31,402 nucleotides of DNA, taken from assembly GCA_001556025.1 (NCBI GenBank), contig LSIB01000103.1:1-31402 (forward strand), in the 5' to 3' direction. This document shows positions 1 through 31,402 of the stretch, piece after piece (position 1 is the stretch's first letter; each line of letters begins with the position of its first letter). A program made the position numbers and the translations under genes. The notes under the pieces were generated by a model. It worked only from the letters and a program-made list of their open reading frames with translations. It ran no database searches and was not told where the DNA came from. This DNA comes from Rhizobiales bacterium CCH3-A5. Lineage in GTDB: Bacteria; Pseudomonadota; Alphaproteobacteria; Rhizobiales; Beijerinckiaceae.

Positions 1-67
1 GGCGCCGCCCCCATCCCGGTCGCCAGCATGCCTCCGGACGGCCGCCCCTCGGGGATGAGGTGGAGGG

Positions 68-73
68 ATTATA
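68..73 (-). promoter_or_regulatory. Possible -10 box reading outward, with a possible cut-off gene start
   Basis: The minus strand reads TATAAT here. About 35 bases further on in the same direction are GGAGG (bases 35-31) and an ATG (29-27), which opens a frame reading MLATGMGAA before the window ends. No convincing -35 box is seen, and the GGAGG is only one base from the ATG, so this may be chance. If real, it is the first few codons of a neighbouring gene cut off by the window edge. Confidence 0.2.
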
Positions 74-136
74 GGGCAGGTGCGTGGGGGCGGGGATTAA
101 GTTGTTTTGCATCTCGCTTCGCGGTGAGGCACGGGG

Positions 137-175
137 AACCCCTCTCCTGTAAGGAGAGGGGCAGGGGTGAGGTGA
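137..175 (+). repeat. Dispersed hairpin repeat, copy A
   Basis: A REP-like unit with a 10-bp perfect stem (CCCCTCTCCT at 139-148 paired with AGGAGAGGGG at 152-161), a 3-base loop, and a tail reading CAGGGGTGAGGTGA. The same 39 bases occur inverted at 647-685, and a shorter variant lies at 545-580. Such GC-rich palindromes are common between genes in Hyphomicrobiales. This copy lies 24 bp upstream of the DUF559 gene. Confidence 0.85.
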
Positions 176-199
176 CGGCCCTTCGACCCGCGAGGCACG

Positions 200-559
200 A
201 TGGCGAACGAGCGGCAGGATTTCGCGAGAAAGCTCCGCCGGCAATCGACGAAGCCGGAGGACATCCTATGGGATTTCCTGCGCGCCGGCCGTCTCGACGG
301 GCTGAAGTTCCGCCGGCAGGTTCCGCTCCTCGCCTACACCGTCGATTTCCTCTGCTTCCAGCACAAGCTCGTCGTCGAACTCGATGGCCGGCAGCATGAT
401 GGCGAGCGGGAGTACGACGCGGCGCGGACGCAGGAAATCGAGCGCCATGGTTTCGTGGTGATCCGGTTTCGAAACGAGATGGTGCTGAACGACCGCGACG
501 CCGTCATCGCCGCCATCCGCGAAGCGGCGGGAACCTCGACGGAGAACCCTCTCGTGTGA
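200..559 (+). CDS. DUF559 domain protein, Vsr-like endonuclease fold
   Basis: This 119-residue protein matches the DUF559 family, small proteins related to very-short-patch-repair and restriction endonucleases. What can be seen is a basic N-terminal helix region with E20, then YTVDF around D49 and LVVELDGRQH around E60 and D62, and a final IRFRNEMV strand near 88-95. This is the layout of a PD-(D/E)xK-type core, so nuclease activity is an inference from the fold. The length is normal for the family. The ATG has a weak GAGG upstream. The gene sits between hairpin-repeat copies, and its last codons and stop (ENPLV, stop 557-559) are encoded inside repeat copy B. Its cellular role is unknown. 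Confidence 0.85.
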   Translation: MANERQDFARKLRRQSTKPEDILWDFLRAGRLDGLKFRRQVPLLAYTVDFLCFQHKLVVELDGRQHDGEREYDAARTQEIERHGFVVIRFRNEMVLNDRDAVIAAIREAAGTSTENPLV

Positions 560-580
560 GGAGAGGGCAGGGTGAGGTGA
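545..580 (+). repeat. Dispersed hairpin repeat, copy B (shortened variant)
   Basis: Same orientation as copy A but degenerate: the stem is CCCTCTC (547-553) with GAGAGGG (561-567), and the tail is CAGGGTGAGGTGA. The stop codon of the DUF559 gene (557-559) lies in the loop region of this hairpin, so gene and repeat overlap. Confidence 0.75.
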
Positions 581-646
581 TGGCCATCTCCGGATGTGGT
601 GCTGATATGCAGCGGTGAGGTTTCCGCCCCACTGGTCCAGCGGCCT

Positions 647-685
647 TCACCTCACCCCTGCCCCTCTCCTTACAGGAGAGGGGTT
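647..685 (-). repeat. Dispersed hairpin repeat, copy C (inverted)
   Basis: All 39 bases are the reverse complement of copy A (137-175). Copies A and C bracket the DUF559 gene as an inverted pair, and copy B lies between them. Confidence 0.85.
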
Positions 686-731
686 CTTCCAGTGCGCTTC
701 GCCGAAGCCGCGACGTCTTTTGGGTAGGTCA

Positions 732-1333
732 ATGGATAGAAAATTCGACGAAGCCGAGCGGATACGCAGGACCAATATCATAGTGGAACAATGCGGTGGC
801 ATCAGTCCTGCCTTTGAGGCTTTCTATATTCACTCGATTATTTATGCGGCGACGGCGTCAATTGAGGCGTTTGAGAGATTTTCTGATGCTGTTCTAAACG
901 AACGTGAATCGTCGATAATGGTGGCGTCGATCGAAGAGGCCTTGACGCATGCAGCCGCACTTTCACGATTTTTTGGCCGGCTAGGGCGTCAAAAATCGCA
1001 ACGGCTCGCGCGAAAAAGCTTTGCGCTGCCTTTAAAATGGCAAGCTCGCCTCTCGAAGATCGGGAGCTTCGTAATGCTCTTGAGCATTTCGATGAACGTC
1101 TTGACGACTTCCTCTTGAAGGATCCTGTCGGCTACTTCTTTCCCGGCCCGTTAGTTCAATCTCATGAGATTGCCGACGAGGCACCAGGACAAATATTCCG
1201 GCTTGTTGATCCCTACGATTTCGTATTTGTTATCCTTGGAAAAAAATATCAATTTTACGACGTTTTCGTTGAAGTTATCCGCATTAAAGAAATGGCCATT
1301 AATTTCGGATATGCGGGATGCCGCGTAGGATAG
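732..1333 (+). pseudogene. Hypothetical protein split by a one-base frameshift
   Basis: Two overlapping frames form one protein of about 200 residues. The first runs from ATG 732 (MDRKFDEAERIRRTN) to EALTHAAALSRFF. The second continues as WPARASKIATARAKK and ends at 1333. The join is the T run at 969-974: six T residues are present, and a seventh would restore one frame reading SRFFWPARAS. The downstream part has RNALEHFDERLDDFL, a motif I associate with uncharacterised bacterial proteins but cannot assign to a function. The region is visibly lower in GC than its surroundings, which suggests acquisition. The break may be a homopolymer sequencing error rather than a true pseudogene. A longer upstream start at 615 would read through repeat C and is not favoured. 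Confidence 0.7.
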
Positions 1334-1427
1334 CTAAAATTTGATGCGTTAAGGATAGGTCACTGCGGGATGGGCTGTGGGACACCCGGTAGCACGTTAG
1401 TTACCCCCATGATGCCATGGTCGACCT

Positions 1428-2825
1428 ATGAACATCCACATCCCGTCATCGAGCGATATGCTCGGACTTCCGGATCTGAAAACGGTCCATGTTTTCGCCG
1501 ATGACGCGGAGAAGAGGATCGTCGTCGAGTCGCTGCTTGAGCGGGCTTCGTGCCCATCATGTACCGCCTATGGGAAATGGATTCATCGACACGGCGTCAG
1601 CGAGCAAGAATTCCGGGACATCCCTCACGGGATGTGGCCGACAGTGCTGCAGTTGAGGCGCAACCGCTTCAAATGCACGGTCTGCAAGAAGACTTGGATG
1701 GAAGAGATCCCATCGCTCGACGGGTCGCGGCTCATGACGCGTCGCCTCGCCGATTTCATCGTCCAGCGCTGCCTCAAGGACACCAACTACAGCGTCGCCG
1801 ACGACGTGGGGCTCGACGAGAGCACGATTCGGAGCGTCTTCAGGGAATTCGTCGCGACCATGGAGCGCGATGACAACCGTGACATGCCAAGGGTCCTGGG
1901 GATTGACGAGATCCACCTGAAGGACGTGCTCTGCGTCCTCACGGACCTGGAGGGCAAGAAGGTCTTCGATCTGCTCCCGTCGCGCACGAAGGACTATCTC
2001 GATCCCTATTTCGGGGCCTTGCCTGGCAAGGATCGCGTCAAGGTCGTCGTCGCCGACATGTGGCGCGCCTACCATGACTTGGCGCGCACACATTTTCCCG
2101 GCCGCCCCGTCGTCGTCGACAAGTTCCACGTCGTCCGCTTCGCCCAGAAGGGCCTGGACGAAATCAGGAAACGGACCGGCCGCAGCTTGAGTCATGCCGA
2201 GAAGATCCGGTTGAAGGACGAGCGGTTCCTCCTGCTCACGCGCGAGAAGTCGCTGACGGATGAGGAATGGGAGCGGGTCCGCCCTTGGCTCGCCCAGTTT
2301 CCCGACCTGCGGGCGGCGTACGAGACGAAGGAGCGGCTATCATCGCTCTACGAAGGCCAGGACTGCGCCGAAGCTGACCGCCTTCTCGGAGATTGCCTCA
2401 GGAAGATCCCCTCTCACCTCGACAAGGACTTCGAGGCCCTTTTCAGCATCGTCAAGAACTGGCGCCCTCAAATTTTGGCGTACTTCGAGCACCCCTTCAC
2501 AAATGGCTACACGGAGGGCGTCAACGCAGCGATCCGGCAGATCGACCGCCAAGGGCGCGGCTACAGCTTCGAGGTGCTCCGCGCCCGTCTCCTCTACAAA
2601 GCGGAGACGACGAAGGGCCGCTCCTCGATTCGACCGAAGCAGCGCCGCTCCGGCAAGGGCAGAGCGTTCATGGACTTCGGGGCCAACGAGATCGACGAGG
2701 CCTACGAGGTCGTGACCACGCCGGATACCACGACCTACCGCCGACGCACGATCGCCGAATTCGAGGCCGAGCTACAAGAATGGCTCTCGGAGGTGGATTC
2801 CGCTTCCGACATAAGATCGGGTTAA
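1428..2825 (+). CDS. ISL3-family transposase
   Basis: This 465-residue DDE transposase catalyses movement of an insertion sequence. The N-terminus carries a zinc-finger pair, C42-x2-C45 and C83-x2-C86. A helix-turn-helix follows near 120-140 (YSVADDVGLDESTIRSVF). The catalytic core has D160 in LGIDEIHLKD, D210 in VVADMWRAYHDLA and E363 in NGYTEGVNAAIR, which is the ISL3 pattern. The protein is slightly longer than most ISL3 transposases because of a C-terminal extension, and it looks intact. No good ribosome site precedes the ATG. A family-like end sequence lies downstream at 2850-2871, but a convincing left partner was not found. Confidence 0.92.
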   Translation: MNIHIPSSSDMLGLPDLKTVHVFADDAEKRIVVESLLERASCPSCTAYGKWIHRHGVSEQEFRDIPHGMWPTVLQLRRNRFKCTVCKKTWMEEIPSLDGSRLMTRRLADFIVQRCLKDTNYSVADDVGLDESTIRSVFREFVATMERDDNRDMPRVLGIDEIHLKDVLCVLTDLEGKKVFDLLPSRTKDYLDPYFGALPGKDRVKVVVADMWRAYHDLARTHFPGRPVVVDKFHVVRFAQKGLDEIRKRTGRSLSHAEKIRLKDERFLLLTREKSLTDEEWERVRPWLAQFPDLRAAYETKERLSSLYEGQDCAEADRLLGDCLRKIPSHLDKDFEALFSIVKNWRPQILAYFEHPFTNGYTEGVNAAIRQIDRQGRGYSFEVLRARLLYKAETTKGRSSIRPKQRRSGKGRAFMDFGANEIDEAYEVVTTPDTTTYRRRTIAEFEAELQEWLSEVDSASDIRSG

Positions 2826-2849
2826 GGAGCAAGGCAGGGATCGAAGATT

Positions 2850-2871
2850 GGGGAATGACCCCCGGAGAGCC
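2850..2871 (-). repeat. Candidate right terminal inverted repeat of the ISL3 element
   Basis: Read on the minus strand this begins GGCTCTCCGGGGGTCATTCC, close to the GGCTCTTCCG start typical of ISL3-family ends. It ends two bases before the GTG start of the next gene, so the GGAGAG inside it may double as that gene's ribosome site. Confidence 0.55.
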
Positions 2872-2873
2872 CT

Positions 2874-3458
2874 GTGAACCCAGCGTCGACAAGCCCGCGG
2901 AACCTGATCGGCCTCTACAGCGCCTGGCGCCTCGGGGAGGAAGATCTCCCGCATTCGACCCAGTGCGCCCCGGACCTCCACATCGAGACGCGCATCGCGA
3001 CGTTCATCGTCGAGCCGGGCGGCACTCTCGAGCTGTCGGCCAGCATGGCGCGACGGGAGGCCTTCCCGCTCGACGATTTCGTGACGGAGGAACTCGGCAC
3101 CCGCCTCGTCGACGACGCGACGGCGACGTACATGGAGAGCCTCGATGGGTGGTTCGAGCTGCCGGCGATCGGTGACCTGACCCTCGCCAAGCGGATGGAC
3201 AACCGCATGATCACCCTGGGCATGACCCGGTTCATCACCGATCCAGCCGACCTGGCCGCCACGCTGAAGCGTCACTGCCTGCCCGAAGCCTGGGCCACAG
3301 ACCGCGACAGCGAGGCCTGGAGGCCCGCGCCGCGGCGGGGACCTAGCATCGACGAGTTCGTCGAGCGCGTAAACGACTTCGTCGGCGACTACAATGAGCG
3401 CGAGGCGCGGCACCGGAAGAAGGCCGCGACGAGGTCCGCCGGTGGCATTGAGCGATAA
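2874..3458 (+). CDS. Hypothetical protein, cargo or neighbour of the ISL3 element
   Basis: This 194-residue protein belongs to no family I recognise. It is acidic in its first two thirds, has no signal peptide or membrane segment, and ends in a basic tail (RHRKKAATRSAGG). Residues 155-175 (PSIDEFVERVNDFVGDYNER) look like an amphipathic helix. The GTG start is chosen because GGAGAG lies 4 bases upstream; that sequence belongs to the IS end, so the insertion may have set the present start. GC and codon use resemble the host. It is followed after 84 bp by a 66-residue gene on the same strand. Confidence 0.6.
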   Translation: MNPASTSPRNLIGLYSAWRLGEEDLPHSTQCAPDLHIETRIATFIVEPGGTLELSASMARREAFPLDDFVTEELGTRLVDDATATYMESLDGWFELPAIGDLTLAKRMDNRMITLGMTRFITDPADLAATLKRHCLPEAWATDRDSEAWRPAPRRGPSIDEFVERVNDFVGDYNEREARHRKKAATRSAGGIER

Positions 3459-3542
3459 ACCAAGCCAAACACATTCCGCGCCTCCGGCCTCGCGTTGATC
3501 GCAGAGGCCCGGAGGAGTAGATTGTGCGCAAAGGAGCACCCT

Positions 3543-3743
3543 ATGAGTTCCGACATCGAGTACTTCGACGTCGAAGAACGACGGAAAGAGAAGGCCCTCG
3601 CCAGGGCCGAGGACGATGCGCGCATCGCGGCCGATCCCTCGGCGCGCGCCGAGATCGTGCGCCGCAACGGCATGTTCTCAGGGTTCGATCCCTCGCAGAT
3701 CGTTCTCCTGAAGCGCCGCATGCCGCGGCGTGACCTTCGGTGA
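3543..3743 (+). CDS. Small hypothetical protein, 66 residues
   Basis: No family recognised. It is a highly charged small protein, with a mostly helical first half rich in E, R, A and K (EERRKEKALARAEDDARIAA) and a basic C-terminus (LLKRRMPRRDLR). The ATG at 3543 is preferred over an upstream in-frame start at 3495 because AAGGAG lies 6 bases before it (3531-3536). The next gene begins within about 20 bp, so the two are probably co-transcribed. It could be a small DNA-binding or antitoxin-like protein, but nothing shows this. Confidence 0.6.
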   Translation: MSSDIEYFDVEERRKEKALARAEDDARIAADPSARAEIVRRNGMFSGFDPSQIVLLKRRMPRRDLR

Positions 3744-3760
3744 AACCCGAGAGGGCTATG

Positions 3761-4105
3761 ATGCACTTCTGGGATCTCTCCAAGCATCATGCCTGGTCCT
3801 TGGCAACCTTGGCCTCTGCCGTCCTTGAGGCCCGCCAGGACGCCTTCGAGCAACTCAAGGCACGAGTGGATGCGCTTCGCGAGGAACCGCGCAGCCGACA
3901 CATTGTCCGAGCATGGGAAGACGTTATGCGAGGCGGTCGCTTCGCGACGGCCAAGGCGCTCGTCATGATGTCACCCGAGGGAGAATTTCTGCGCGACAGC
4001 GGGCTGCACGCCTTGATTCTGACGACGGAAGAAATCGGGCGCGCGCTGGAGACAACGCGCCGAGAGCGCCGGACCGGAGCGGTCGCTTACGATAGCATGG
4101 CGTAG
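3761..4105 (+). CDS. Hypothetical protein preceding a nucleotidyltransferase; possible toxin-antitoxin partner
   Basis: This 114-residue protein (MHFWDLSKHHAWSLATLAS) has no known domain that I recognise. A helical middle (EARQDAFEQLKARVDALREE) is followed by a conserved-looking GGRFATAKALVMMSPEGEFL. ATG 3761 is chosen because GAGGG sits 5 bases upstream. ATG 3758 and GTG 3740 (which would overlap the previous stop) are alternatives. Only 5 bp separate its stop from the nucleotidyltransferase gene, so the two are almost certainly translated together. That spacing suggests a partner protein, perhaps an antitoxin, but this is inferred from layout only. Confidence 0.6.
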   Translation: MHFWDLSKHHAWSLATLASAVLEARQDAFEQLKARVDALREEPRSRHIVRAWEDVMRGGRFATAKALVMMSPEGEFLRDSGLHALILTTEEIGRALETTRRERRTGAVAYDSMA

Positions 4106-4110
4106 CCGCA

Positions 4111-4953
4111 ATGGTCATGACCCGATCCAAGCTGGCCCATATTCTCCGTGCGGCCGCCTATCACACAGGGCATTCAGAATTTGTCCTCATCGGTTCGGCT
4201 AGCGTCCTGGCACACCCAGGGCGCATACCCGGGGACATGCTGCTGACGCATGAGGCCGACATTTACGCGCCTAGTGCCGAGGACTTCGACGAAATGGCCC
4301 TCTCGATCAAAGCAGGGCTCGGCGAAGGAACATCGTTCCATAGGGAGTTCGGCTACTATGCCGACGGCGTAAATCCCAGCACGGCCATCATGCCGCTAGG
4401 GTGGCGTGAGCGCGCGACACCATACGAGCACAGCGAATGTCCCAACGTGATCGCAATTGTGCCCGACCTCAACGACATCGCGATCGCAAAGATGATCGCC
4501 TGGCGCGAAAAGGACCAGACATGGCTCGCCTCGGGCGCGCGCTCGGGCATGATTGATGCCGATACCATGCATTCCCGCATCGACGCGCTACCTCGCGGTG
4601 CCATTACACTTCCGCCGCGGCACGAGATCGAAAGACGCCTCGACGAGATCGAGCGCTTCACAGGTCGACCTGGAAAAGTGGCGCCTATCCACGAGATCAT
4701 CAACAATGCCGCGTCGATAGGACCCGGCTTCGAAGACGGGCGCGTTCTCGTTAAGTGGAAGTTCAAGAGCGATGCGGATGACGATACCAAGCGCGCTATC
4801 CTCACCCATTATAACTCCCTCGCACGAGAACTTGCCGTCCGCGCCTGGAAACTGAGGGACTACGATAGGGCAACGGCCTGGGAATCCAGTGGCAGAAAAG
4901 CCATCACTGCGCCGGACCGCAGGCATGCTGATAAGGCGAATTTAGAGATCTGA
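4111..4953 (+). CDS. DUF6036-like nucleotidyltransferase family protein
   Basis: This 280-residue protein resembles the DUF6036/AbiEii-type nucleotidyltransferase-like group. What I see is FVLIGSASVLA (G28, S29) as the nucleotide-binding glycine-serine pair, LLTHEADIYA (E48, D50) where the metal-binding acidic residues usually lie, and DLNDIAIAKMIAWREKDQ near 140-157, matching the conserved DL.AAKL.AGREKD helix of that group. Members often act as toxins that modify RNA or proteins, or occur in phage-defence loci. The substrate here is unknown. Two start codons, 4111 and 4117, are possible, and neither has a strong ribosome site, which fits translational coupling to the gene 5 bp upstream. Confidence 0.7.
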   Translation: MVMTRSKLAHILRAAAYHTGHSEFVLIGSASVLAHPGRIPGDMLLTHEADIYAPSAEDFDEMALSIKAGLGEGTSFHREFGYYADGVNPSTAIMPLGWRERATPYEHSECPNVIAIVPDLNDIAIAKMIAWREKDQTWLASGARSGMIDADTMHSRIDALPRGAITLPPRHEIERRLDEIERFTGRPGKVAPIHEIINNAASIGPGFEDGRVLVKWKFKSDADDDTKRAILTHYNSLARELAVRAWKLRDYDRATAWESSGRKAITAPDRRHADKANLEI

Positions 4954-5150
4954 AACGCCCGTAAACACTCGCCGTTCGGCCGGGTACTTCAGGGCAATCC
5001 TAACATCCCACATTGCCGTGAAAGTGTAACATTCGAGGTTCCACCGCGCCCACTCTTAAATCCGCATATCCTTAATTTCGATCGCAACGACTCAAATCTC
5101 AGATATTAGAGTAGATGGCATATTTTCGCGATGCTGGATGAACAGAGGTT

Positions 5151-5194
5151 ACATCGCTCAAGCTGCTGCATGAGCGCAGCATCTTGAGCGATGT
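5151..5194 (-). terminator. Strong hairpin downstream of malate synthase
   Basis: ACATCGCTCAAGCTGCTGC (5151-5169) pairs with 5176-5194 with one mismatch in 19, leaving a 6-base loop. It begins 9 bp beyond the malate synthase stop codon. No T tract follows on the minus strand, so it may act with Rho or stabilise the mRNA end rather than being a classical intrinsic terminator. It also marks the change from accessory to core genes. Confidence 0.6.
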
Positions 5195-5202
5195 GTTCAC
5201 CC

Positions 5203-6813
5203 TCACAACTTCCCATAAGCCGGCAGCGTCAAAAACTCCTCGAACTGCGGCGCCAGCGAGAGCCCCGAGAACAGCTCGATCGCCTCGGGGAACCGCCCCT
5301 TGTCGTAAGCCTCCGCGCCGAGTTCGCCCTTCACCCGCTCCATCTCCTCGGTCAGGCAGCGCTTGAACAGCTCCGGCGTTACCTTCGTGCCGCCGTCGAC
5401 CTCGACGCCATAGGCGACGAACTGCCAGATCTGGGCGCGGCTGATCTCGGCGGTCGCAGCGTCCTCCATCATATTGTAGATCGGCACCGCGCCGCGGCCG
5501 CGCAGCCAGGCTTCGAGATATTGCACGCCGACGCGGATGTTTTCGCGGAAGCCCTCTTCCGAGCGCGTGCCCTGGTGGACTTCGAGCAGGTCCTTCGCGG
5601 TGACGCTGACGTCCTCGCGGGCCTTGTCGAGTTGGTTCTTCTGCGGCATCAGCCGGTCGAACACCTCCATCGCGACGGGGACGAGGTCGGGATGGGCGAC
5701 CCAGGTACCGTCATGGCCGTCGCCGGCCTCGCGCTCCTTGTCGGCCTTGACCTTGGCGAAGGCGGCCGCATTGGCCTCGGGGTTGTTCTTGACCGGGATC
5801 TGCGCCGCCATGCCGCCCATGGCGAAGGCGCCGCGGCGGTGGCAGGTCTTGATCAGCAGCAGCGAATAGGCGCGCAGGAAGGCTTTCGTCATCACGACCT
5901 GCGAACGGTCGGGCAGGACGAAGGCCGGGTTACGGGCGAGCTTCTTGATGAAGGAGAAGATGTAGTCCCAGCGGCCGCAGTTGAGGCCGGCGATATGGTC
6001 CTTCAGCTCGAACAGGATCTCGTCCATCTCGAAAGCGGCGGGCAGCGTCTCGATCAGCACGGTCGCCTTGATCGTGCCGACCTTGAGGCCGAGCGCGTTC
6101 TGCGCGGCGACGAACACGTCGTTCCAGAGCCGGGCTTCGAGGTGGCTCTCGAGCTTGGGCAGGTAGAAATAGGGGCCGGAGCCTGCAGCCAGCGCGGCCT
6201 TGGCGTTGTGGAAGAGATAGAGCCCGAAATCCACCAGCGAGCCGGATGCGACCTCGCCGTCGATCTCGATATGGGCTTCAGGCAGGTGCCAGCCGCGCGG
6301 GCGGATGATCAGCACGGCCGGGTTGGCTTTGAGCGCATAGGCCTTGCCGGTCGTCGCGTCGGTGAAGTCGATCTTGTTCGCCCAGCGGTCCTTCAGGTTG
6401 ATCTGGCCCTCGATCATGTTGGCCCAGACCGGCGAGGAGGCGTCCTCGAAATCGGCCATGAAGACCTTTGCGCCGCAGTTCAGCGCATTGACGATCATCT
6501 TGCGGTCGACAGGGCCGGTGATCTCGACGCGGCGGTCCTGCAGATCGGCGGGGATCGGCGCGACCTTCCAGTCGCCTTCGCGGATATGCTTCGTCTCGGC
6601 CAGGAAGTCCGGCGTCTCGCCGGCGTCGAAGCGCTTCTGGCGCTCGGCGCGGAGGCTCAGCAGGCGCTTGCGCGTCTCGTTGAAGCGGCGCTGCAGATCG
6701 GCCACGAAGGCGAGCGCGTCATGGCTCAGGATCTCGTCGAAACGGTCGCCCATCGCGCCCTTGATCACGACGCCCTTGGGGAGGTTTGCGGACGGCTTCT
6801 CGACTGCGGACAT
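5203..6813 (-). CDS. Malate synthase A
   Basis: This enzyme condenses glyoxylate with acetyl-CoA to give malate, the second step of the glyoxylate shunt, in the cytoplasm. The 536 residues match the A-type enzyme rather than the roughly 720-residue G type. The family signature is at 271-284 (KDHIAGLNCGRWDY). Also visible are FMADFEDASSP (118-128), RPRGWHLPE (171-179), LIETLPAAFEMDEIL, and MEDAATAEIS with the likely catalytic aspartate near the C-terminus. The ATG is preceded by AGGAG at a spacing of 6. The gene is divergent from the TadG-like gene across 288 bp, which must hold both promoters, although I could not pick clear boxes. Isocitrate lyase is not in the window. The symbol could be aceB or glcB by local convention. 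Confidence 0.96.
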   Translation of the reverse strand: MSAVEKPSANLPKGVVIKGAMGDRFDEILSHDALAFVADLQRRFNETRKRLLSLRAERQKRFDAGETPDFLAETKHIREGDWKVAPIPADLQDRRVEITGPVDRKMIVNALNCGAKVFMADFEDASSPVWANMIEGQINLKDRWANKIDFTDATTGKAYALKANPAVLIIRPRGWHLPEAHIEIDGEVASGSLVDFGLYLFHNAKAALAAGSGPYFYLPKLESHLEARLWNDVFVAAQNALGLKVGTIKATVLIETLPAAFEMDEILFELKDHIAGLNCGRWDYIFSFIKKLARNPAFVLPDRSQVVMTKAFLRAYSLLLIKTCHRRGAFAMGGMAAQIPVKNNPEANAAAFAKVKADKEREAGDGHDGTWVAHPDLVPVAMEVFDRLMPQKNQLDKAREDVSVTAKDLLEVHQGTRSEEGFRENIRVGVQYLEAWLRGRGAVPIYNMMEDAATAEISRAQIWQFVAYGVEVDGGTKVTPELFKRCLTEEMERVKGELGAEAYDKGRFPEAIELFSGLSLAPQFEEFLTLPAYGKL

Positions 6814-7101
6814 GATCGTCTCCTGTGCTGGCGCGAACCATGCGCGCGCTGCGCTTTCGACGCAATCGTCTTGAATGGCGGCTCAGCTTTTCGAAAACGG
6901 GAAAGATCACGCGTCCTGGCCCTGCGCTCGGCTGTGCCCTGCCGGCGCATCGCCTTAGTGATCTGGCAAGGATACCGGCGGGATTGCCGGTCGCGGCGGC
7001 GCGAAACTGGCCAATAGGCCGGTGTTTCCGCAGCCGGCTTCACGCGCAATTAAAGACAATCGTCGCGTTCTGGGCATCGAACAGCCGCTAGGACCGCAGC
7101 C

Positions 7102-8388
7102 GTGACCATGACGCCAGACCAGCACAGCCGCCCGCGTGACGCCGCCTCGCGCTTCGTCGCCGACGAGCGCGGCAACGTGATCATGCTGTTTGCCTTCGCG
7201 CTGCTGCCGATCGTGCTGGGTGCCGGAGCGCTGATCGACTACGCGACCGCGTCGAACAGCCGGCAGCACCTCAACGCGCTGGCGGATGCCGCCGCGCTGG
7301 CCGCCGTCTCCAAGACGGCGATGACGCAGACCGCGGAAGAGGCGCAGGCCCAGGCCGAACGCATCTTCGATGCGCAGGTCGCCCATGCCGGCGCGACGCT
7401 GGCAAAGCGCAGCGTGAGCGTGACGCAGACGGGCGCGACCCGCGCGGTCGAGGTCAGCTACAGCGCCAAGGTCGAGACCGCGTTCATGAAGATCGCGGGG
7501 TTCAAGACCGTGTCCGTCAGCGGCTGGGCGCGTTCGTCGGCGGCCAACCCGCCTTATATCGATTTCTACCTTCTGCTCGACAATTCGCCCTCGATGGGCG
7601 TTGGCGCGACCACGGCCGACATCAACAAGATGATCGCCAACACCTCGGACAAATGCGCCTTCGCCTGTCACGACCAGTCCAACAAGAACAACTACTACAA
7701 CCTCGCCAAGAAGCTCGGCGTGCAGATGCGCATCGACGTGGTGCGGCAGGCCTCGCAGCAACTGATGGACACAGCCTCGACCACGCAGACGCTGAAGAAC
7801 CAGTTCCGGATGGCGGCCTATACGTTCGGCGCATCCTGCGACGGCAAGAAGCTGACCCAGATCAAGGGCATCTCGTCCGATCTCGCCTCGGTCAAGGCGG
7901 CGGCGGGCAAGATCGACCTGATGTCGATCCCCAAGCAGAATTTCGACAACGACCAGTGCACCGATTTCGACAAGAACCTGACCGCGATCGACAAGGAGAT
8001 TGAGGCGCCTGGCGACGGTTCGAGCCCGAGCAAGCCGCAGAAGGTTCTGTACTTCGTCGCCGACGGGGTGGGCGATTTCTACAACCCGTCGAGCTGCTCC
8101 AAGCCGCTCGTCGGCTCGCGCTGCCAGGAGCCGATCGACACGAATTTCTGCAAGGCGATCAAGGATCGCGGCATCAGGATCGCGGTGCTCTACACCACCT
8201 ATCTGCCGCTGCCGACGAACGACTGGTACAAGACCTATATCAGCCCATTCCAATCGCAGATCGGCAAGAACATGGAGGCCTGCGCCAGCCCCGGCCTGTT
8301 CTTCGAGGTGACCCCGACCGACGGCATCTCGCAGGCGATGAACGCGCTGTTCCAGAAGGTGGTGTCGAAGGCCTATCTCACCGGCTGA
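7102..8388 (+). CDS. TadG-like pilus-assembly protein with von Willebrand A domain
   Basis: This 428-residue protein is anchored by one N-terminal membrane helix (about 25-46, VIMLFAFALLPIVLGAGALI), preceded by DERGNV, the pattern of the TadE/TadG-like pseudopilin segment. ALADAAALAAVSK follows, typical of the family. A vWA domain begins near residue 153, with the metal-binding MIDAS motif DNSPS at 160-164. Several cysteines (for example in CAFAC and in CSKPL) suggest disulfides in the periplasm. Such proteins help build or anchor Flp/Tad pili, but no other tad gene lies here, so it is probably a stand-alone paralogue. GTG 7102 fits the AGGA 8 bases upstream; ATG 7108 is the alternative. Its end overlaps the HD gene by 16 bp tail to tail. 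Confidence 0.85.
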   Translation: MTMTPDQHSRPRDAASRFVADERGNVIMLFAFALLPIVLGAGALIDYATASNSRQHLNALADAAALAAVSKTAMTQTAEEAQAQAERIFDAQVAHAGATLAKRSVSVTQTGATRAVEVSYSAKVETAFMKIAGFKTVSVSGWARSSAANPPYIDFYLLLDNSPSMGVGATTADINKMIANTSDKCAFACHDQSNKNNYYNLAKKLGVQMRIDVVRQASQQLMDTASTTQTLKNQFRMAAYTFGASCDGKKLTQIKGISSDLASVKAAAGKIDLMSIPKQNFDNDQCTDFDKNLTAIDKEIEAPGDGSSPSKPQKVLYFVADGVGDFYNPSSCSKPLVGSRCQEPIDTNFCKAIKDRGIRIAVLYTTYLPLPTNDWYKTYISPFQSQIGKNMEACASPGLFFEVTPTDGISQAMNALFQKVVSKAYLTG

Positions 8389-9014: not shown

Positions 9015-9016
9015 GC

Positions 9017-10536: not shown

Positions 10537-10549
10537 GGTTTCAGTCTCC

Positions 10550-10580
10550 CGGCCGCAGTTTCCAAACGGCGTTGCGGCCG
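10550..10580. promoter_or_regulatory. Inverted repeat in the ygfZ / dihydroorotase divergent gap
   Basis: CGGCCGCA (10550-10557) and TGCGGCCG (10573-10580) form an 8-bp inverted repeat with a 15-base spacer, which itself holds GTTTCCAAAC. It lies where the two divergent promoters must be, so it could be an operator. No known regulator site is recognised. Confidence 0.3.
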
Positions 10581-12119: not shown

Positions 12120-12168
12120 ACAATCCTCATCGGCTCTCGTTGTCACGATCACCGACCGTCTGCCAAAC

Positions 12169-20853: not shown

Positions 20854-20866
20854 GGAGACTGAAACC

Positions 20867-22386: not shown

Positions 22387-22388
22387 GC

Positions 22389-23030: not shown

Positions 23031-24301
23031 GCCTTCGACACCACCTTCTGGAACAGCGCGTTCATCGCCTGCGAGATGCCGTCGGTCGGGGTCACCTCGA
23101 AGAACAGGCCGGGGCTGGCGCAGGCCTCCATGTTCTTGCCGATCTGCGATTGGAATGGGCTGATATAGGTCTTGTACCAGTCGTTCGTCGGCAGCGGCAG
23201 ATAGGTGGTGTAGAGCACCGCGATCCTGATGCCGCGATCCTTGATCGCCTTGCAGAAATTCGTGTCGATCGGCTCCTGGCAGCGCGAGCCGACGAGCGGC
23301 TTGGAGCAGCTCGACGGGTTGTAGAAATCGCCCACCCCGTCGGCGACGAAGTACAGAACCTTCTGCGGCTTGCTCGGGCTCGAACCGTCGCCAGGCGCCT
23401 CAATCTCCTTGTCGATCGCGGTCAGGTTCTTGTCGAAATCGGTGCACTGGTCGTTGTCGAAATTCTGCTTGGGGATCGACATCAGGTCGATCTTGCCCGC
23501 CGCCGCCTTGACCGAGGCGAGATCGGACGAGATGCCCTTGATCTGGGTCAGCTTCTTGCCGTCGCAGGATGCGCCGAACGTATAGGCCGCCATCCGGAAC
23601 TGGTTCTTCAGCGTCTGCGTGGTCGAGGCTGTGTCCATCAGTTGCTGCGAGGCCTGCCGCACCACGTCGATGCGCATCTGCACGCCGAGCTTCTTGGCGA
23701 GGTTGTAGTAGTTGTTCTTGTTGGACTGGTCGTGACAGGCGAAGGCGCATTTGTCCGAGGTGTTGGCGATCATCTTGTTGATGTCGGCCGTGGTCGCGCC
23801 AACGCCCATCGAGGGCGAATTGTCGAGCAGAAGGTAGAAATCGATATAAGGCGGGTTGGCCGCCGACGAACGCGCCCAGCCGCTGACGGACACGGTCTTG
23901 AACCCCGCGATCTTCATGAACGCGGTCTCGACCTTGGCGCTGTAGCTGACCTCGACCGCGCGGGTCGCGCCCGTCTGCGTCACGCTCACGCTGCGCTTTG
24001 CCAGCGTCGCGCCGGCATGGGCGACCTGCGCATCGAAGATGCGTTCGGCCTGGGCCTGCGCCTCTTCCGCGGTCTGCGTCATCGCCGTCTTGGAGACGGC
24101 GGCCAGCGCGGCGGCATCCGCCAGCGCGTTGAGGTGCTGCCGGCTGTTCGACGCGGTCGCGTAGTCGATCAGCGCTCCGGCACCCAGCACGATCGGCAGC
24201 AGCGCGAAGGCAAACAGCATGATCACGTTGCCGCGCTCGTCGGCGACGAAGCGCGAGGCGGCGTCACGCGGGCGGCTGTGCTGGTCTGGCGTCATGGTCA
24301 C
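23015..24301 (-). CDS. TadG-like vWA protein (mirror copy)
   Basis: Identical to 7102-8388, with the N-terminal membrane helix and the DNSPS MIDAS motif. Confidence 0.8.
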   Translation of the reverse strand: MTMTPDQHSRPRDAASRFVADERGNVIMLFAFALLPIVLGAGALIDYATASNSRQHLNALADAAALAAVSKTAMTQTAEEAQAQAERIFDAQVAHAGATLAKRSVSVTQTGATRAVEVSYSAKVETAFMKIAGFKTVSVSGWARSSAANPPYIDFYLLLDNSPSMGVGATTADINKMIANTSDKCAFACHDQSNKNNYYNLAKKLGVQMRIDVVRQASQQLMDTASTTQTLKNQFRMAAYTFGASCDGKKLTQIKGISSDLASVKAAAGKIDLMSIPKQNFDNDQCTDFDKNLTAIDKEIEAPGDGSSPSKPQKVLYFVADGVGDFYNPSSCSKPLVGSRCQEPIDTNFCKAIKDRGIRIAVLYTTYLPLPTNDWYKTYISPFQSQIGKNMEACASPGLFFEVTPTDGISQAMNALFQKVVSKAYLTG

Positions 24302-24589
24302 GGCTGCGGTCCTAGCGGCTGTTCGATGCCCAGAACGCGACGATTGTCTTTAATTGCGCGTGAAGCCGGCTGCGGAAACACCGGCCTATTGGCCAGTTTC
24401 GCGCCGCCGCGACCGGCAATCCCGCCGGTATCCTTGCCAGATCACTAAGGCGATGCGCCGGCAGGGCACAGCCGAGCGCAGGGCCAGGACGCGTGATCTT
24501 TCCCGTTTTCGAAAAGCTGAGCCGCCATTCAAGACGATTGCGTCGAAAGCGCAGCGCGCGCATGGTTCGCGCCAGCACAGGAGACGATC

Positions 24590-26200
24590 ATGTCCGCAGT
24601 CGAGAAGCCGTCCGCAAACCTCCCCAAGGGCGTCGTGATCAAGGGCGCGATGGGCGACCGTTTCGACGAGATCCTGAGCCATGACGCGCTCGCCTTCGTG
24701 GCCGATCTGCAGCGCCGCTTCAACGAGACGCGCAAGCGCCTGCTGAGCCTCCGCGCCGAGCGCCAGAAGCGCTTCGACGCCGGCGAGACGCCGGACTTCC
24801 TGGCCGAGACGAAGCATATCCGCGAAGGCGACTGGAAGGTCGCGCCGATCCCCGCCGATCTGCAGGACCGCCGCGTCGAGATCACCGGCCCTGTCGACCG
24901 CAAGATGATCGTCAATGCGCTGAACTGCGGCGCAAAGGTCTTCATGGCCGATTTCGAGGACGCCTCCTCGCCGGTCTGGGCCAACATGATCGAGGGCCAG
25001 ATCAACCTGAAGGACCGCTGGGCGAACAAGATCGACTTCACCGACGCGACGACCGGCAAGGCCTATGCGCTCAAAGCCAACCCGGCCGTGCTGATCATCC
25101 GCCCGCGCGGCTGGCACCTGCCTGAAGCCCATATCGAGATCGACGGCGAGGTCGCATCCGGCTCGCTGGTGGATTTCGGGCTCTATCTCTTCCACAACGC
25201 CAAGGCCGCGCTGGCTGCAGGCTCCGGCCCCTATTTCTACCTGCCCAAGCTCGAGAGCCACCTCGAAGCCCGGCTCTGGAACGACGTGTTCGTCGCCGCG
25301 CAGAACGCGCTCGGCCTCAAGGTCGGCACGATCAAGGCGACCGTGCTGATCGAGACGCTGCCCGCCGCTTTCGAGATGGACGAGATCCTGTTCGAGCTGA
25401 AGGACCATATCGCCGGCCTCAACTGCGGCCGCTGGGACTACATCTTCTCCTTCATCAAGAAGCTCGCCCGTAACCCGGCCTTCGTCCTGCCCGACCGTTC
25501 GCAGGTCGTGATGACGAAAGCCTTCCTGCGCGCCTATTCGCTGCTGCTGATCAAGACCTGCCACCGCCGCGGCGCCTTCGCCATGGGCGGCATGGCGGCG
25601 CAGATCCCGGTCAAGAACAACCCCGAGGCCAATGCGGCCGCCTTCGCCAAGGTCAAGGCCGACAAGGAGCGCGAGGCCGGCGACGGCCATGACGGTACCT
25701 GGGTCGCCCATCCCGACCTCGTCCCCGTCGCGATGGAGGTGTTCGACCGGCTGATGCCGCAGAAGAACCAACTCGACAAGGCCCGCGAGGACGTCAGCGT
25801 CACCGCGAAGGACCTGCTCGAAGTCCACCAGGGCACGCGCTCGGAAGAGGGCTTCCGCGAAAACATCCGCGTCGGCGTGCAATATCTCGAAGCCTGGCTG
25901 CGCGGCCGCGGCGCGGTGCCGATCTACAATATGATGGAGGACGCTGCGACCGCCGAGATCAGCCGCGCCCAGATCTGGCAGTTCGTCGCCTATGGCGTCG
26001 AGGTCGACGGCGGCACGAAGGTAACGCCGGAGCTGTTCAAGCGCTGCCTGACCGAGGAGATGGAGCGGGTGAAGGGCGAACTCGGCGCGGAGGCTTACGA
26101 CAAGGGGCGGTTCCCCGAGGCGATCGAGCTGTTCTCGGGGCTCTCGCTGGCGCCGCAGTTCGAGGAGTTTTTGACGCTGCCGGCTTATGGGAAGTTGTGA
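24590..26200 (+). CDS. Malate synthase A (mirror copy)
   Basis: Identical to 5203-6813. The ribosome site AGGAG before ATG 24590 can be read directly on this strand. Confidence 0.87.
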   Translation: MSAVEKPSANLPKGVVIKGAMGDRFDEILSHDALAFVADLQRRFNETRKRLLSLRAERQKRFDAGETPDFLAETKHIREGDWKVAPIPADLQDRRVEITGPVDRKMIVNALNCGAKVFMADFEDASSPVWANMIEGQINLKDRWANKIDFTDATTGKAYALKANPAVLIIRPRGWHLPEAHIEIDGEVASGSLVDFGLYLFHNAKAALAAGSGPYFYLPKLESHLEARLWNDVFVAAQNALGLKVGTIKATVLIETLPAAFEMDEILFELKDHIAGLNCGRWDYIFSFIKKLARNPAFVLPDRSQVVMTKAFLRAYSLLLIKTCHRRGAFAMGGMAAQIPVKNNPEANAAAFAKVKADKEREAGDGHDGTWVAHPDLVPVAMEVFDRLMPQKNQLDKAREDVSVTAKDLLEVHQGTRSEEGFRENIRVGVQYLEAWLRGRGAVPIYNMMEDAATAEISRAQIWQFVAYGVEVDGGTKVTPELFKRCLTEEMERVKGELGAEAYDKGRFPEAIELFSGLSLAPQFEEFLTLPAYGKL

Positions 26201-26208
26201 GGGTGAAC

Positions 26209-26252
26209 ACATCGCTCAAGATGCTGCGCTCATGCAGCAGCTTGAGCGATGT
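26209..26252 (+). terminator. Hairpin downstream of malate synthase (mirror copy)
   Basis: The same 19-bp stem with one mismatch and 6-base loop as at 5151-5194, starting 9 bp after the malate synthase stop. Confidence 0.55.
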
Positions 26253-26449
26253 AACCTCTGTTCATCCAGCATCGCGAAAATATGCCATCTACTCTAATAT
26301 CTGAGATTTGAGTCGTTGCGATCGAAATTAAGGATATGCGGATTTAAGAGTGGGCGCGGTGGAACCTCGAATGTTACACTTTCACGGCAATGTGGGATGT
26401 TAGGATTGCCCTGAAGTACCCGGCCGAACGGCGAGTGTTTACGGGCGTT

Positions 26450-27292
26450 TCAGATCTCTAAATTCGCCTTATCAGCATGCCTGCGGTCCGGCGCAGTGAT
26501 GGCTTTTCTGCCACTGGATTCCCAGGCCGTTGCCCTATCGTAGTCCCTCAGTTTCCAGGCGCGGACGGCAAGTTCTCGTGCGAGGGAGTTATAATGGGTG
26601 AGGATAGCGCGCTTGGTATCGTCATCCGCATCGCTCTTGAACTTCCACTTAACGAGAACGCGCCCGTCTTCGAAGCCGGGTCCTATCGACGCGGCATTGT
26701 TGATGATCTCGTGGATAGGCGCCACTTTTCCAGGTCGACCTGTGAAGCGCTCGATCTCGTCGAGGCGTCTTTCGATCTCGTGCCGCGGCGGAAGTGTAAT
26801 GGCACCGCGAGGTAGCGCGTCGATGCGGGAATGCATGGTATCGGCATCAATCATGCCCGAGCGCGCGCCCGAGGCGAGCCATGTCTGGTCCTTTTCGCGC
26901 CAGGCGATCATCTTTGCGATCGCGATGTCGTTGAGGTCGGGCACAATTGCGATCACGTTGGGACATTCGCTGTGCTCGTATGGTGTCGCGCGCTCACGCC
27001 ACCCTAGCGGCATGATGGCCGTGCTGGGATTTACGCCGTCGGCATAGTAGCCGAACTCCCTATGGAACGATGTTCCTTCGCCGAGCCCTGCTTTGATCGA
27101 GAGGGCCATTTCGTCGAAGTCCTCGGCACTAGGCGCGTAAATGTCGGCCTCATGCGTCAGCAGCATGTCCCCGGGTATGCGCCCTGGGTGTGCCAGGACG
27201 CTAGCCGAACCGATGAGGACAAATTCTGAATGCCCTGTGTGATAGGCGGCCGCACGGAGAATATGGGCCAGCTTGGATCGGGTCATGACCAT
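26450..27292 (-). CDS. DUF6036-like nucleotidyltransferase (mirror copy)
   Basis: Identical to 4111-4953, with the GS pair and EADIY acidic motif. Confidence 0.63.
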   Translation of the reverse strand: MVMTRSKLAHILRAAAYHTGHSEFVLIGSASVLAHPGRIPGDMLLTHEADIYAPSAEDFDEMALSIKAGLGEGTSFHREFGYYADGVNPSTAIMPLGWRERATPYEHSECPNVIAIVPDLNDIAIAKMIAWREKDQTWLASGARSGMIDADTMHSRIDALPRGAITLPPRHEIERRLDEIERFTGRPGKVAPIHEIINNAASIGPGFEDGRVLVKWKFKSDADDDTKRAILTHYNSLARELAVRAWKLRDYDRATAWESSGRKAITAPDRRHADKANLEI

Positions 27293-27297
27293 TGCGG

Positions 27298-27642
27298 CTA
27301 CGCCATGCTATCGTAAGCGACCGCTCCGGTCCGGCGCTCTCGGCGCGTTGTCTCCAGCGCGCGCCCGATTTCTTCCGTCGTCAGAATCAAGGCGTGCAGC
27401 CCGCTGTCGCGCAGAAATTCTCCCTCGGGTGACATCATGACGAGCGCCTTGGCCGTCGCGAAGCGACCGCCTCGCATAACGTCTTCCCATGCTCGGACAA
27501 TGTGTCGGCTGCGCGGTTCCTCGCGAAGCGCATCCACTCGTGCCTTGAGTTGCTCGAAGGCGTCCTGGCGGGCCTCAAGGACGGCAGAGGCCAAGGTTGC
27601 CAAGGACCAGGCATGATGCTTGGAGAGATCCCAGAAGTGCAT
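27298..27642 (-). CDS. Hypothetical partner protein (mirror copy)
   Basis: Identical to 3761-4105, again 5 bp from the nucleotidyltransferase gene. Confidence 0.55.
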   Translation of the reverse strand: MHFWDLSKHHAWSLATLASAVLEARQDAFEQLKARVDALREEPRSRHIVRAWEDVMRGGRFATAKALVMMSPEGEFLRDSGLHALILTTEEIGRALETTRRERRTGAVAYDSMA

Positions 27643-27659
27643 CATAGCCCTCTCGGGTT

Positions 27660-27860
27660 TCACCGAAGGTCACGCCGCGGCATGCGGCGCTTCAGGAGAA
27701 CGATCTGCGAGGGATCGAACCCTGAGAACATGCCGTTGCGGCGCACGATCTCGGCGCGCGCCGAGGGATCGGCCGCGATGCGCGCATCGTCCTCGGCCCT
27801 GGCGAGGGCCTTCTCTTTCCGTCGTTCTTCGACGTCGAAGTACTCGATGTCGGAACTCAT
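27660..27860 (-). CDS. Small hypothetical protein, 66 residues (mirror copy)
   Basis: Identical to 3543-3743, with the same AAGGAG ribosome site. Confidence 0.55.
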   Translation of the reverse strand: MSSDIEYFDVEERRKEKALARAEDDARIAADPSARAEIVRRNGMFSGFDPSQIVLLKRRMPRRDLR

Positions 27861-27944
27861 AGGGTGCTCCTTTGCGCACAATCTACTCCTCCGGGCCTCT
27901 GCGATCAACGCGAGGCCGGAGGCGCGGAATGTGTTTGGCTTGGT

Positions 27945-28529
27945 TTATCGCTCAATGCCACCGGCGGACCTCGTCGCGGCCTTCTTCCGGTGCCGCGCCT
28001 CGCGCTCATTGTAGTCGCCGACGAAGTCGTTTACGCGCTCGACGAACTCGTCGATGCTAGGTCCCCGCCGCGGCGCGGGCCTCCAGGCCTCGCTGTCGCG
28101 GTCTGTGGCCCAGGCTTCGGGCAGGCAGTGACGCTTCAGCGTGGCGGCCAGGTCGGCTGGATCGGTGATGAACCGGGTCATGCCCAGGGTGATCATGCGG
28201 TTGTCCATCCGCTTGGCGAGGGTCAGGTCACCGATCGCCGGCAGCTCGAACCACCCATCGAGGCTCTCCATGTACGTCGCCGTCGCGTCGTCGACGAGGC
28301 GGGTGCCGAGTTCCTCCGTCACGAAATCGTCGAGCGGGAAGGCCTCCCGTCGCGCCATGCTGGCCGACAGCTCGAGAGTGCCGCCCGGCTCGACGATGAA
28401 CGTCGCGATGCGCGTCTCGATGTGGAGGTCCGGGGCGCACTGGGTCGAATGCGGGAGATCTTCCTCCCCGAGGCGCCAGGCGCTGTAGAGGCCGATCAGG
28501 TTCCGCGGGCTTGTCGACGCTGGGTTCAC
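27945..28529 (-). CDS. Hypothetical protein beside the ISL3 element (mirror copy)
   Basis: Identical to 2874-3458, including the GTG start two bases from the IS end. Confidence 0.55.
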   Translation of the reverse strand: MNPASTSPRNLIGLYSAWRLGEEDLPHSTQCAPDLHIETRIATFIVEPGGTLELSASMARREAFPLDDFVTEELGTRLVDDATATYMESLDGWFELPAIGDLTLAKRMDNRMITLGMTRFITDPADLAATLKRHCLPEAWATDRDSEAWRPAPRRGPSIDEFVERVNDFVGDYNEREARHRKKAATRSAGGIER

Positions 28530-28531
28530 AG

Positions 28532-28553
28532 GGCTCTCCGGGGGTCATTCCCC
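28532..28553 (+). repeat. Candidate ISL3 terminal repeat (mirror copy)
   Basis: GGCTCTCCGGGGGTCATTCC is read directly on the plus strand here. It is the same end as at 2850-2871. Confidence 0.5.
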
Positions 28554-28577
28554 AATCTTCGATCCCTGCCTTGCTCC

Positions 28578-29975
28578 TTAACCCGATCTTATGTCGGAAG
28601 CGGAATCCACCTCCGAGAGCCATTCTTGTAGCTCGGCCTCGAATTCGGCGATCGTGCGTCGGCGGTAGGTCGTGGTATCCGGCGTGGTCACGACCTCGTA
28701 GGCCTCGTCGATCTCGTTGGCCCCGAAGTCCATGAACGCTCTGCCCTTGCCGGAGCGGCGCTGCTTCGGTCGAATCGAGGAGCGGCCCTTCGTCGTCTCC
28801 GCTTTGTAGAGGAGACGGGCGCGGAGCACCTCGAAGCTGTAGCCGCGCCCTTGGCGGTCGATCTGCCGGATCGCTGCGTTGACGCCCTCCGTGTAGCCAT
28901 TTGTGAAGGGGTGCTCGAAGTACGCCAAAATTTGAGGGCGCCAGTTCTTGACGATGCTGAAAAGGGCCTCGAAGTCCTTGTCGAGGTGAGAGGGGATCTT
29001 CCTGAGGCAATCTCCGAGAAGGCGGTCAGCTTCGGCGCAGTCCTGGCCTTCGTAGAGCGATGATAGCCGCTCCTTCGTCTCGTACGCCGCCCGCAGGTCG
29101 GGAAACTGGGCGAGCCAAGGGCGGACCCGCTCCCATTCCTCATCCGTCAGCGACTTCTCGCGCGTGAGCAGGAGGAACCGCTCGTCCTTCAACCGGATCT
29201 TCTCGGCATGACTCAAGCTGCGGCCGGTCCGTTTCCTGATTTCGTCCAGGCCCTTCTGGGCGAAGCGGACGACGTGGAACTTGTCGACGACGACGGGGCG
29301 GCCGGGAAAATGTGTGCGCGCCAAGTCATGGTAGGCGCGCCACATGTCGGCGACGACGACCTTGACGCGATCCTTGCCAGGCAAGGCCCCGAAATAGGGA
29401 TCGAGATAGTCCTTCGTGCGCGACGGGAGCAGATCGAAGACCTTCTTGCCCTCCAGGTCCGTGAGGACGCAGAGCACGTCCTTCAGGTGGATCTCGTCAA
29501 TCCCCAGGACCCTTGGCATGTCACGGTTGTCATCGCGCTCCATGGTCGCGACGAATTCCCTGAAGACGCTCCGAATCGTGCTCTCGTCGAGCCCCACGTC
29601 GTCGGCGACGCTGTAGTTGGTGTCCTTGAGGCAGCGCTGGACGATGAAATCGGCGAGGCGACGCGTCATGAGCCGCGACCCGTCGAGCGATGGGATCTCT
29701 TCCATCCAAGTCTTCTTGCAGACCGTGCATTTGAAGCGGTTGCGCCTCAACTGCAGCACTGTCGGCCACATCCCGTGAGGGATGTCCCGGAATTCTTGCT
29801 CGCTGACGCCGTGTCGATGAATCCATTTCCCATAGGCGGTACATGATGGGCACGAAGCCCGCTCAAGCAGCGACTCGACGACGATCCTCTTCTCCGCGTC
29901 ATCGGCGAAAACATGGACCGTTTTCAGATCCGGAAGTCCGAGCATATCGCTCGATGACGGGATGTGGATGTTCAT
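28578..29975 (-). CDS. ISL3-family transposase (mirror copy)
   Basis: Identical to 1428-2825, with the zinc-finger cysteines and the D-D-E triad intact. Confidence 0.86.
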   Translation of the reverse strand: MNIHIPSSSDMLGLPDLKTVHVFADDAEKRIVVESLLERASCPSCTAYGKWIHRHGVSEQEFRDIPHGMWPTVLQLRRNRFKCTVCKKTWMEEIPSLDGSRLMTRRLADFIVQRCLKDTNYSVADDVGLDESTIRSVFREFVATMERDDNRDMPRVLGIDEIHLKDVLCVLTDLEGKKVFDLLPSRTKDYLDPYFGALPGKDRVKVVVADMWRAYHDLARTHFPGRPVVVDKFHVVRFAQKGLDEIRKRTGRSLSHAEKIRLKDERFLLLTREKSLTDEEWERVRPWLAQFPDLRAAYETKERLSSLYEGQDCAEADRLLGDCLRKIPSHLDKDFEALFSIVKNWRPQILAYFEHPFTNGYTEGVNAAIRQIDRQGRGYSFEVLRARLLYKAETTKGRSSIRPKQRRSGKGRAFMDFGANEIDEAYEVVTTPDTTTYRRRTIAEFEAELQEWLSEVDSASDIRSG

Positions 29976-30069
29976 AGGTCGACCATGGCATCATGGGGGT
30001 AACTAACGTGCTACCGGGTGTCCCACAGCCCATCCCGCAGTGACCTATCCTTAACGCATCAAATTTTAG

Positions 30070-30671
30070 CTATCCTACGCGGCATCCCGCATATCCGAAA
30101 TTAATGGCCATTTCTTTAATGCGGATAACTTCAACGAAAACGTCGTAAAATTGATATTTTTTTCCAAGGATAACAAATACGAAATCGTAGGGATCAACAA
30201 GCCGGAATATTTGTCCTGGTGCCTCGTCGGCAATCTCATGAGATTGAACTAACGGGCCGGGAAAGAAGTAGCCGACAGGATCCTTCAAGAGGAAGTCGTC
30301 AAGACGTTCATCGAAATGCTCAAGAGCATTACGAAGCTCCCGATCTTCGAGAGGCGAGCTTGCCATTTTAAAGGCAGCGCAAAGCTTTTTCGCGCGAGCC
30401 GTTGCGATTTTTGACGCCCTAGCCGGCCAAAAAATCGTGAAAGTGCGGCTGCATGCGTCAAGGCCTCTTCGATCGACGCCACCATTATCGACGATTCACG
30501 TTCGTTTAGAACAGCATCAGAAAATCTCTCAAACGCCTCAATTGACGCCGTCGCCGCATAAATAATCGAGTGAATATAGAAAGCCTCAAAGGCAGGACTG
30601 ATGCCACCGCATTGTTCCACTATGATATTGGTCCTGCGTATCCGCTCGGCTTCGTCGAATTTTCTATCCAT
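30070..30671 (-). pseudogene. Frameshifted hypothetical protein (mirror copy)
   Basis: The same gene as 732-1333, with the identical one-base break, now in a run of six A on the plus strand (30429-30434). An identical defect in both arms shows that they derive from one consensus or one very recent event. Confidence 0.65.
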
Positions 30672-30717
30672 TGACCTACCCAAAAGACGTCGCGGCTTCG
30701 GCGAAGCGCACTGGAAG

Positions 30718-30756
30718 AACCCCTCTCCTGTAAGGAGAGGGGCAGGGGTGAGGTGA
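30718..30756 (+). repeat. Dispersed hairpin repeat, copy C (mirror copy)
   Basis: Mirror of 647-685, with the same 10-bp stem. Confidence 0.78.
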
Positions 30757-30822
30757 AGGCCGCTGGACCAGTGGGGCGGAAACCTCACCGCTGCATATCA
30801 GCACCACATCCGGAGATGGCCA

Positions 30823-30858
30823 TCACCTCACCCTGCCCTCTCCTCACACGAGAGGGTT
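30823..30858 (-). repeat. Dispersed hairpin repeat, copy B (mirror copy)
   Basis: Mirror of 545-580, again containing the stop codon of the DUF559 gene. Confidence 0.68.
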
Positions 30859-31203
30859 CTCCGTCGAGGTTCCCGCCGCTTCGCGGATGGCGGCGATGAC
30901 GGCGTCGCGGTCGTTCAGCACCATCTCGTTTCGAAACCGGATCACCACGAAACCATGGCGCTCGATTTCCTGCGTCCGCGCCGCGTCGTACTCCCGCTCG
31001 CCATCATGCTGCCGGCCATCGAGTTCGACGACGAGCTTGTGCTGGAAGCAGAGGAAATCGACGGTGTAGGCGAGGAGCGGAACCTGCCGGCGGAACTTCA
31101 GCCCGTCGAGACGGCCGGCGCGCAGGAAATCCCATAGGATGTCCTCCGGCTTCGTCGATTGCCGGCGGAGCTTTCTCGCGAAATCCTGCCGCTCGTTCGC
31201 CAT
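30844..31203 (-). CDS. DUF559 domain protein (mirror copy)
   Basis: Identical to 200-559, including D49 and the ELDG motif and the 3' end inside a hairpin repeat. Confidence 0.78.
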   Translation of the reverse strand: MANERQDFARKLRRQSTKPEDILWDFLRAGRLDGLKFRRQVPLLAYTVDFLCFQHKLVVELDGRQHDGEREYDAARTQEIERHGFVVIRFRNEMVLNDRDAVIAAIREAAGTSTENPLV

Positions 31204-31227
31204 CGTGCCTCGCGGGTCGAAGGGCCG

Positions 31228-31266
31228 TCACCTCACCCCTGCCCCTCTCCTTACAGGAGAGGGGTT
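31228..31266 (-). repeat. Dispersed hairpin repeat, copy A (mirror copy)
   Basis: Mirror of 137-175. Confidence 0.78.
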
Positions 31267-31329
31267 CCCCGTGCCTCACCGCGAAGCGAGATGCAAAACA
31301 ACTTAATCCCCGCCCCCACGCACCTGCCC

Positions 31330-31335
31330 TATAAT
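31330..31335 (+). promoter_or_regulatory. Possible outward -10 box (mirror copy)
   Basis: TATAAT on the plus strand, the mirror of 68-73, followed by GGAGG and an ATG at 31374 that runs off the window end. The same doubts apply. Confidence 0.2.
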
Positions 31336-31402
31336 CCCTCCACCTCATCCCCGAGGGGCGGCCGTCCGGAGGCATGCTGGCGACCGGGATGGGGGCGGCG
31401 CC

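Follow-up and report, generated by a model that had tools for sequence, protein, structure and literature searches.

The window, meaning the whole stretch of 31,402 nucleotides that was analysed, is very probably a technical artefact of one kind or another, in which one real 15,701-bp stretch of Bosea-like chromosome would have become fused, at base 15701, to its own reverse complement. The sequence-only reading had described an exact palindrome with no spacer, and both points held: the self-alignment that it had proposed as a check, comparing the window with its own reverse complement, returned 0 mismatches over 31,402 bases, and the axis falls between bases 15701 and 15702 with nothing separating the arms. 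Base composition is accordingly symmetrical (G = C = 10,133; A = T = 5,568). The left arm (1-15701, forward strand) is taken to be the real sequence, coming from one stretch of Bosea-like chromosome, and the right arm (15702-31402, reverse strand), its exact reverse complement, as an artefactual second reading. The outermost bases of the window are the arm ends, so that the palindrome fills the window and flanking sequence is absent. Such a mirror lies far beyond chance, since the longest perfect zero-spacer palindromes elsewhere in one arm (the outer 20 bases at each end excluded) have halves of only 8 bp. As a random excerpt of a longer record would hardly be centred on the axis to the exact base, the palindrome is probably the entire record.

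Judging from its gene content and its relatives, the real content of the window is one 15.7-kb arm of ordinary chromosome of a Bosea-like alphaproteobacterium. The left arm contained all four gene families named earlier, with mirror copies in the right arm: malate synthase A (5203-6813, reverse strand; TIGR01344), the DNA-3-methyladenine glycosylase I gene tag (9017-9655, reverse; TIGR00624, PF03352), a ygfZ/CAF17-like gene (9652-10536, reverse; TIGR03317), and the pyridoxamine 5'-phosphate oxidase gene pdxH (13641-14426, forward; TIGR00558 from residue 71, the true start probably lying later). The same arm possessed genes for a dihydroorotase (10624-11964, forward; NF006559) and a DnaJ-family protein (12169-13077, reverse; PF00226/PF01556), an ORF with an SDR oxidoreductase domain at residues ~127-366 (14113-15216, forward; PF13561, PF00106), and a complete NUDIX hydrolase ORF, the last gene before the axis (15213-15689, forward; PF00293). 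DUF559, DUF6036, TadE/G-like, HD-domain and 17-kDa-antigen-like genes were also present among the left-arm ORFs scanned. Internal stops were absent from the 11 reading frames checked between 5203 and 15689 (the SDR frame from 14482).

The nearest genome (G001) had 29% of the window's sampled 31-mers in common with it. Positions 5199-15701 were colinear with G001:C27 30070-41115 at 93-94% identity, in one place in that genome, apart from an unaligned gap near 12.1 kb (651 bases in G001 vs 74 in the window). Window 1-686 adjoins malate synthase in two other genomes (G015 and G053), which makes the left part normal chromosome too; in the window, ~4.5 kb of accessory DNA separates 1-686 from the malate synthase part. 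Bosea sp. Leaf344 was among the relatives matched, and several homologues of the DUF2385 protein discussed below bear Bosea names. The axis-side segment (14113-15701) had one strong place per genome in all 67 genus genomes searched (recounted from the match table), in agreement with the artefact origin proposed by the sequence-only reading; the other rows among the matches listed for this segment were weak (at most 113 bits). The match came in pieces in 11 of the 67 genomes (G025, G034, G036, G037, G038, G043, G045, G046, G051, G057, G060); ten of the 11 had these pieces side by side on a single contig, and G025 had them split between two contig ends. For the NUDIX part, G043 gave just a weak match, located on a different contig (66%, 183 bits).

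An inversion separates some of the relatives from the window, with an edge at positions ~12091-12166. G001 and the window share one orientation of the block from DnaJ to NUDIX; relative to the adjoining sequence, that block is inverted in G015, G053, Bosea sp. Leaf344 (L017) and an Alsobacter MAG (L018). The axis itself was considered as a breakpoint of this inversion, an idea that was rejected because the DUF2385 gene follows NUDIX in either arrangement.

At the position of the axis, the G001 contig continues into other DNA, where an intact 148-aa DUF2385/TIGR02301 gene comes next, and L016 extends 8.7 kb further. A NUDIX gene followed on the same strand by a DUF2385 gene was found in 20 of 20 loci (4.5-4.6 kb each, from the best 20 of the 67 genomes). 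The window keeps only the first 16 nt of this gene (15686-15701, forward; ATG, four codons and one base), the remainder being missing. The suspicion that a fold-back read or an assembly-graph artefact was the likeliest cause was supported by a locus that occupies one place in the nearest genome and continues there beyond the axis, and by a next gene severed after 16 nt. A self-inverted repeat was sought in the 20 NUDIX-DUF2385 loci, and none was present in 19 of them; the exception, L041, had one self-overlapping inverted match of 173 columns at 70.5% (3985-4152). Homologues of the DUF2385 protein numbered 527 at E <= 1e-20; among the best 120 of these 527, four had an MRGA start, and the start MRGAI expected of the species' own intact gene was not found.

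The place of the turn may have been set by a natural palindrome of ~14 bp, the axis core GCGATCC|GGATCGC (15695-15708, without strand), although the tests bearing on this are suggestive only. The first 7 bases beyond the axis agree with the G001 continuation at 5; among 10,274 control positions, 2.4% reached at least 5 of 7. With alternative lengths, the control values were 4.9% for 5 of 8, 3.6% for 6 of 10 and 0.57% for a run of at least 5. Read on beyond the axis, the DUF2385 frame gives R-I-A where G001 has L-I-A, so that 2 of 3 residues agree, as they did in 102 of 3,131 control codons (3.3%). Of the 13 DUF2385 homologue starts compared, 6 have R-I-A at residues 6-8; the axis-codon residue in G001 is L, not R. 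The tests were picked after looking at the data, and four further natural palindromes of 14-16 bp lie within the same arm, so the axis palindrome alone cannot account for the chosen place and this evidence is a lead, not a result. A natural hairpin at the axis in G001 was also considered and rejected, as the 71-nt stretch folded no better than chance (z = -1.04; 30 of 200 shuffles at least as good).

At the outer end of the arm, window 1-113 recurs at unrelated places in relatives (G001:C17 and a second site in G015 are examples), consistent with a contig that stops at a dispersed repeat. The idea that the outer end cuts a gene, raised by an ORF open at base 1, was dropped, because a forward open frame in G015, as read from stop positions only, ends ~270 nt before the matching place. 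Close by, a 61-bp inverted repeat (136-196 and 626-686, 89%) brackets the DUF559 gene (200-556). The repeat, mirrored in the right arm, has matches at numerous sites in G001 and in further genomes of the genus. A DUF559 homologue lay near copies of this repeat in 10 of 10 loci, a biased choice drawn from the best matches to 1-1427; three more distant DUF559 genes of G001 had no copies of the 61-bp repeat in their 3.3-kb loci. Window 128-700 may, speculatively, be a repeat-associated mobile nuclease unit. The accessory stretch that follows (~690-5198), missing at the same place beside malate synthase in G001, encodes an ISL3-family transposase (1428-2825, forward; PF01610) and a DUF6036 nucleotidyltransferase-like protein (4111-4953). 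For 2900-5190 within it, 16 of the 67 genus genomes gave a match of any kind; that in G020 was the longest (78%, ~520 bp).

The artefact may have arisen when a fold-back molecule or read turned at the short palindrome just within the DUF2385 gene, at a point where the true continuation would have been absent or too thin. An assembler that merges strands would then have traversed the arm forward and back again, making the two arms identical by construction. Amplification, library preparation, sequencing and the graph itself are all candidate sources of the fold-back.

This route was modelled with a small strand-collapsed de Bruijn graph, a toy and not a real assembler, whose input was the left arm and one 150-nt axis-crossing read. 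At k = 55, 3 of 4 read placements returned the exact window, compared with 2 of 4 at k = 77 and 0 of 4 at either k = 99 or k = 127; with a centred 150-nt read, k = 55 was the only one of these four values to yield the window. Smaller values (k = 21 and k = 33) already fragment the arm, close to base 155-167. Since the contig can be obtained from one arm and one read, the exact identity of the arms needs no biology: in the model they are the same graph path. When a stand-in continuation was added, the walk halted at 15701 in both runs (k = 55 and 77), and the model requires a real continuation that was missing or had been pruned. The graph runs at k = 55 and 77, though not those at k = 99 and 127, lend weight to the cause suggested from the sequence-only reading. 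Overall, the window is a self-complementary record whose ends are the arm ends, whose locus is single-copy and continues in relatives, and whose sequence can be derived from a graph, which are the marks of a palindromic-contig artefact. As such, gene counts, copy number and terminal-inverted-repeat calls made from it would be wrong, and the arm should be counted once.

Long-read inserts reach 15.7 kb, and the arm would fit a variant of the technical origin in which a single long read became the contig, through a missed hairpin adapter or through nanopore template and complement read as one. Extracts of PMC6218980 state that missed SMRTbell adaptors produce palindromic sequences, and those of PMC12870357 report foldbacks in ONT gDNA or cDNA data at up to 0.61% of reads. 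Without polishing, two raw passes should show differences, whereas the arms differ at 0 of 15,701 positions, and an outer end within a stretch present elsewhere in relatives would rather suit a short-read contig stopping at a repeat; this variant is possible, and holds a minor share of the technical reading. A biological source of the same form would be a genuine spacer-free inverted duplication of the 15.7-kb segment, such as a tandem inversion duplication, generated by snap-back replication at the short palindrome in the DUF2385 start, stably kept and collapsed by the assembler. A strand-collapsed graph could yield an identical contig from it, and the axis may indeed be a natural short palindrome. 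However, a second strong place was found in none of the 67 genus genomes, the junction destroys the gene that follows NUDIX in 20 of 20 loci (unless another copy exists elsewhere), both arms stop at the same base without flanks, and long palindromes are unstable in E. coli according to extracts of PMC4057610. A genuine duplication is very unlikely; if true, it would mean that a bacterial chromosome carries a spacer-free palindrome of very great length, contrary to the expected instability.

Intermediates of hairpin-ended replicons are spacer-free head-to-head palindromes, and the window shares that form with a replication intermediate or dimer of a hairpin-ended linear replicon whose telomere junction would be the axis. 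The arm, however, is genus-wide chromosomal sequence that continues beyond the axis in relatives, including at L036, a locus from a genome in one contig, and in the relatives examined the axis position, with DNA running on past it, does not look like a replicon end. Plasmid records cover at most 9% of the arm (71-80% identity) and the phage collection gave no megablast match, so that this explanation, already disfavoured, has a negligible probability. Genes for replication and for a telomere resolvase were absent from the subset of ORFs scanned. Viral and plasmid origins had been considered in their own right and were rejected: two exact-pattern scans of viral_contigs came back empty, as did the megablast comparison with phages, and the matches to plasmids were patchy, in 12 records each within the limits just given. 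A single stretch of chromosome read twice by technical means remains the preferred origin of the window.

Among known systems, a tandem inversion duplication with a head-to-head junction at a short palindrome would resemble the axis of the window. Such a duplication was reportedly described in Salmonella (attributed to Kugelberg, 2010); a real one would come with flanking sequence and raised depth, whereas the window shows no flanks. For fold-back and MDA chimeras, extracts of PMC6218980, PMC12870357 and PMC1855051 describe a fragment joined inverted to its own complement, as in the window. The first of these treats palindromes and chimeras formed during amplification, and in the extracts of PMC1855051, MDA chimeras often begin at 2-21 complementary bases and are mostly inversions with an intervening deletion, in contrast to the zero-spacer turn and exactly equal arms of the window. 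Extracts of PMC12870357 argue that reads which are almost perfectly palindromic and break close to the middle can reasonably be filtered. Palindromes that fill whole contigs are a further parallel, which two sources consider likely assembly errors, in line with the cause first suspected here. Extracts of PMC9455707 report 81 wholly palindromic SPAdes contigs from M. bovis isolates, judged likely assembly error, that inflate accessory genes, with mislabelling at contig ends; those of PMC12755884 state that palindromic contigs were discarded from cyanobacterial single-cell assemblies as very likely artefacts. In both data sets, as far as the extracts describe them, the second half of the contig is an exact mirror of the first, as it is in the window.
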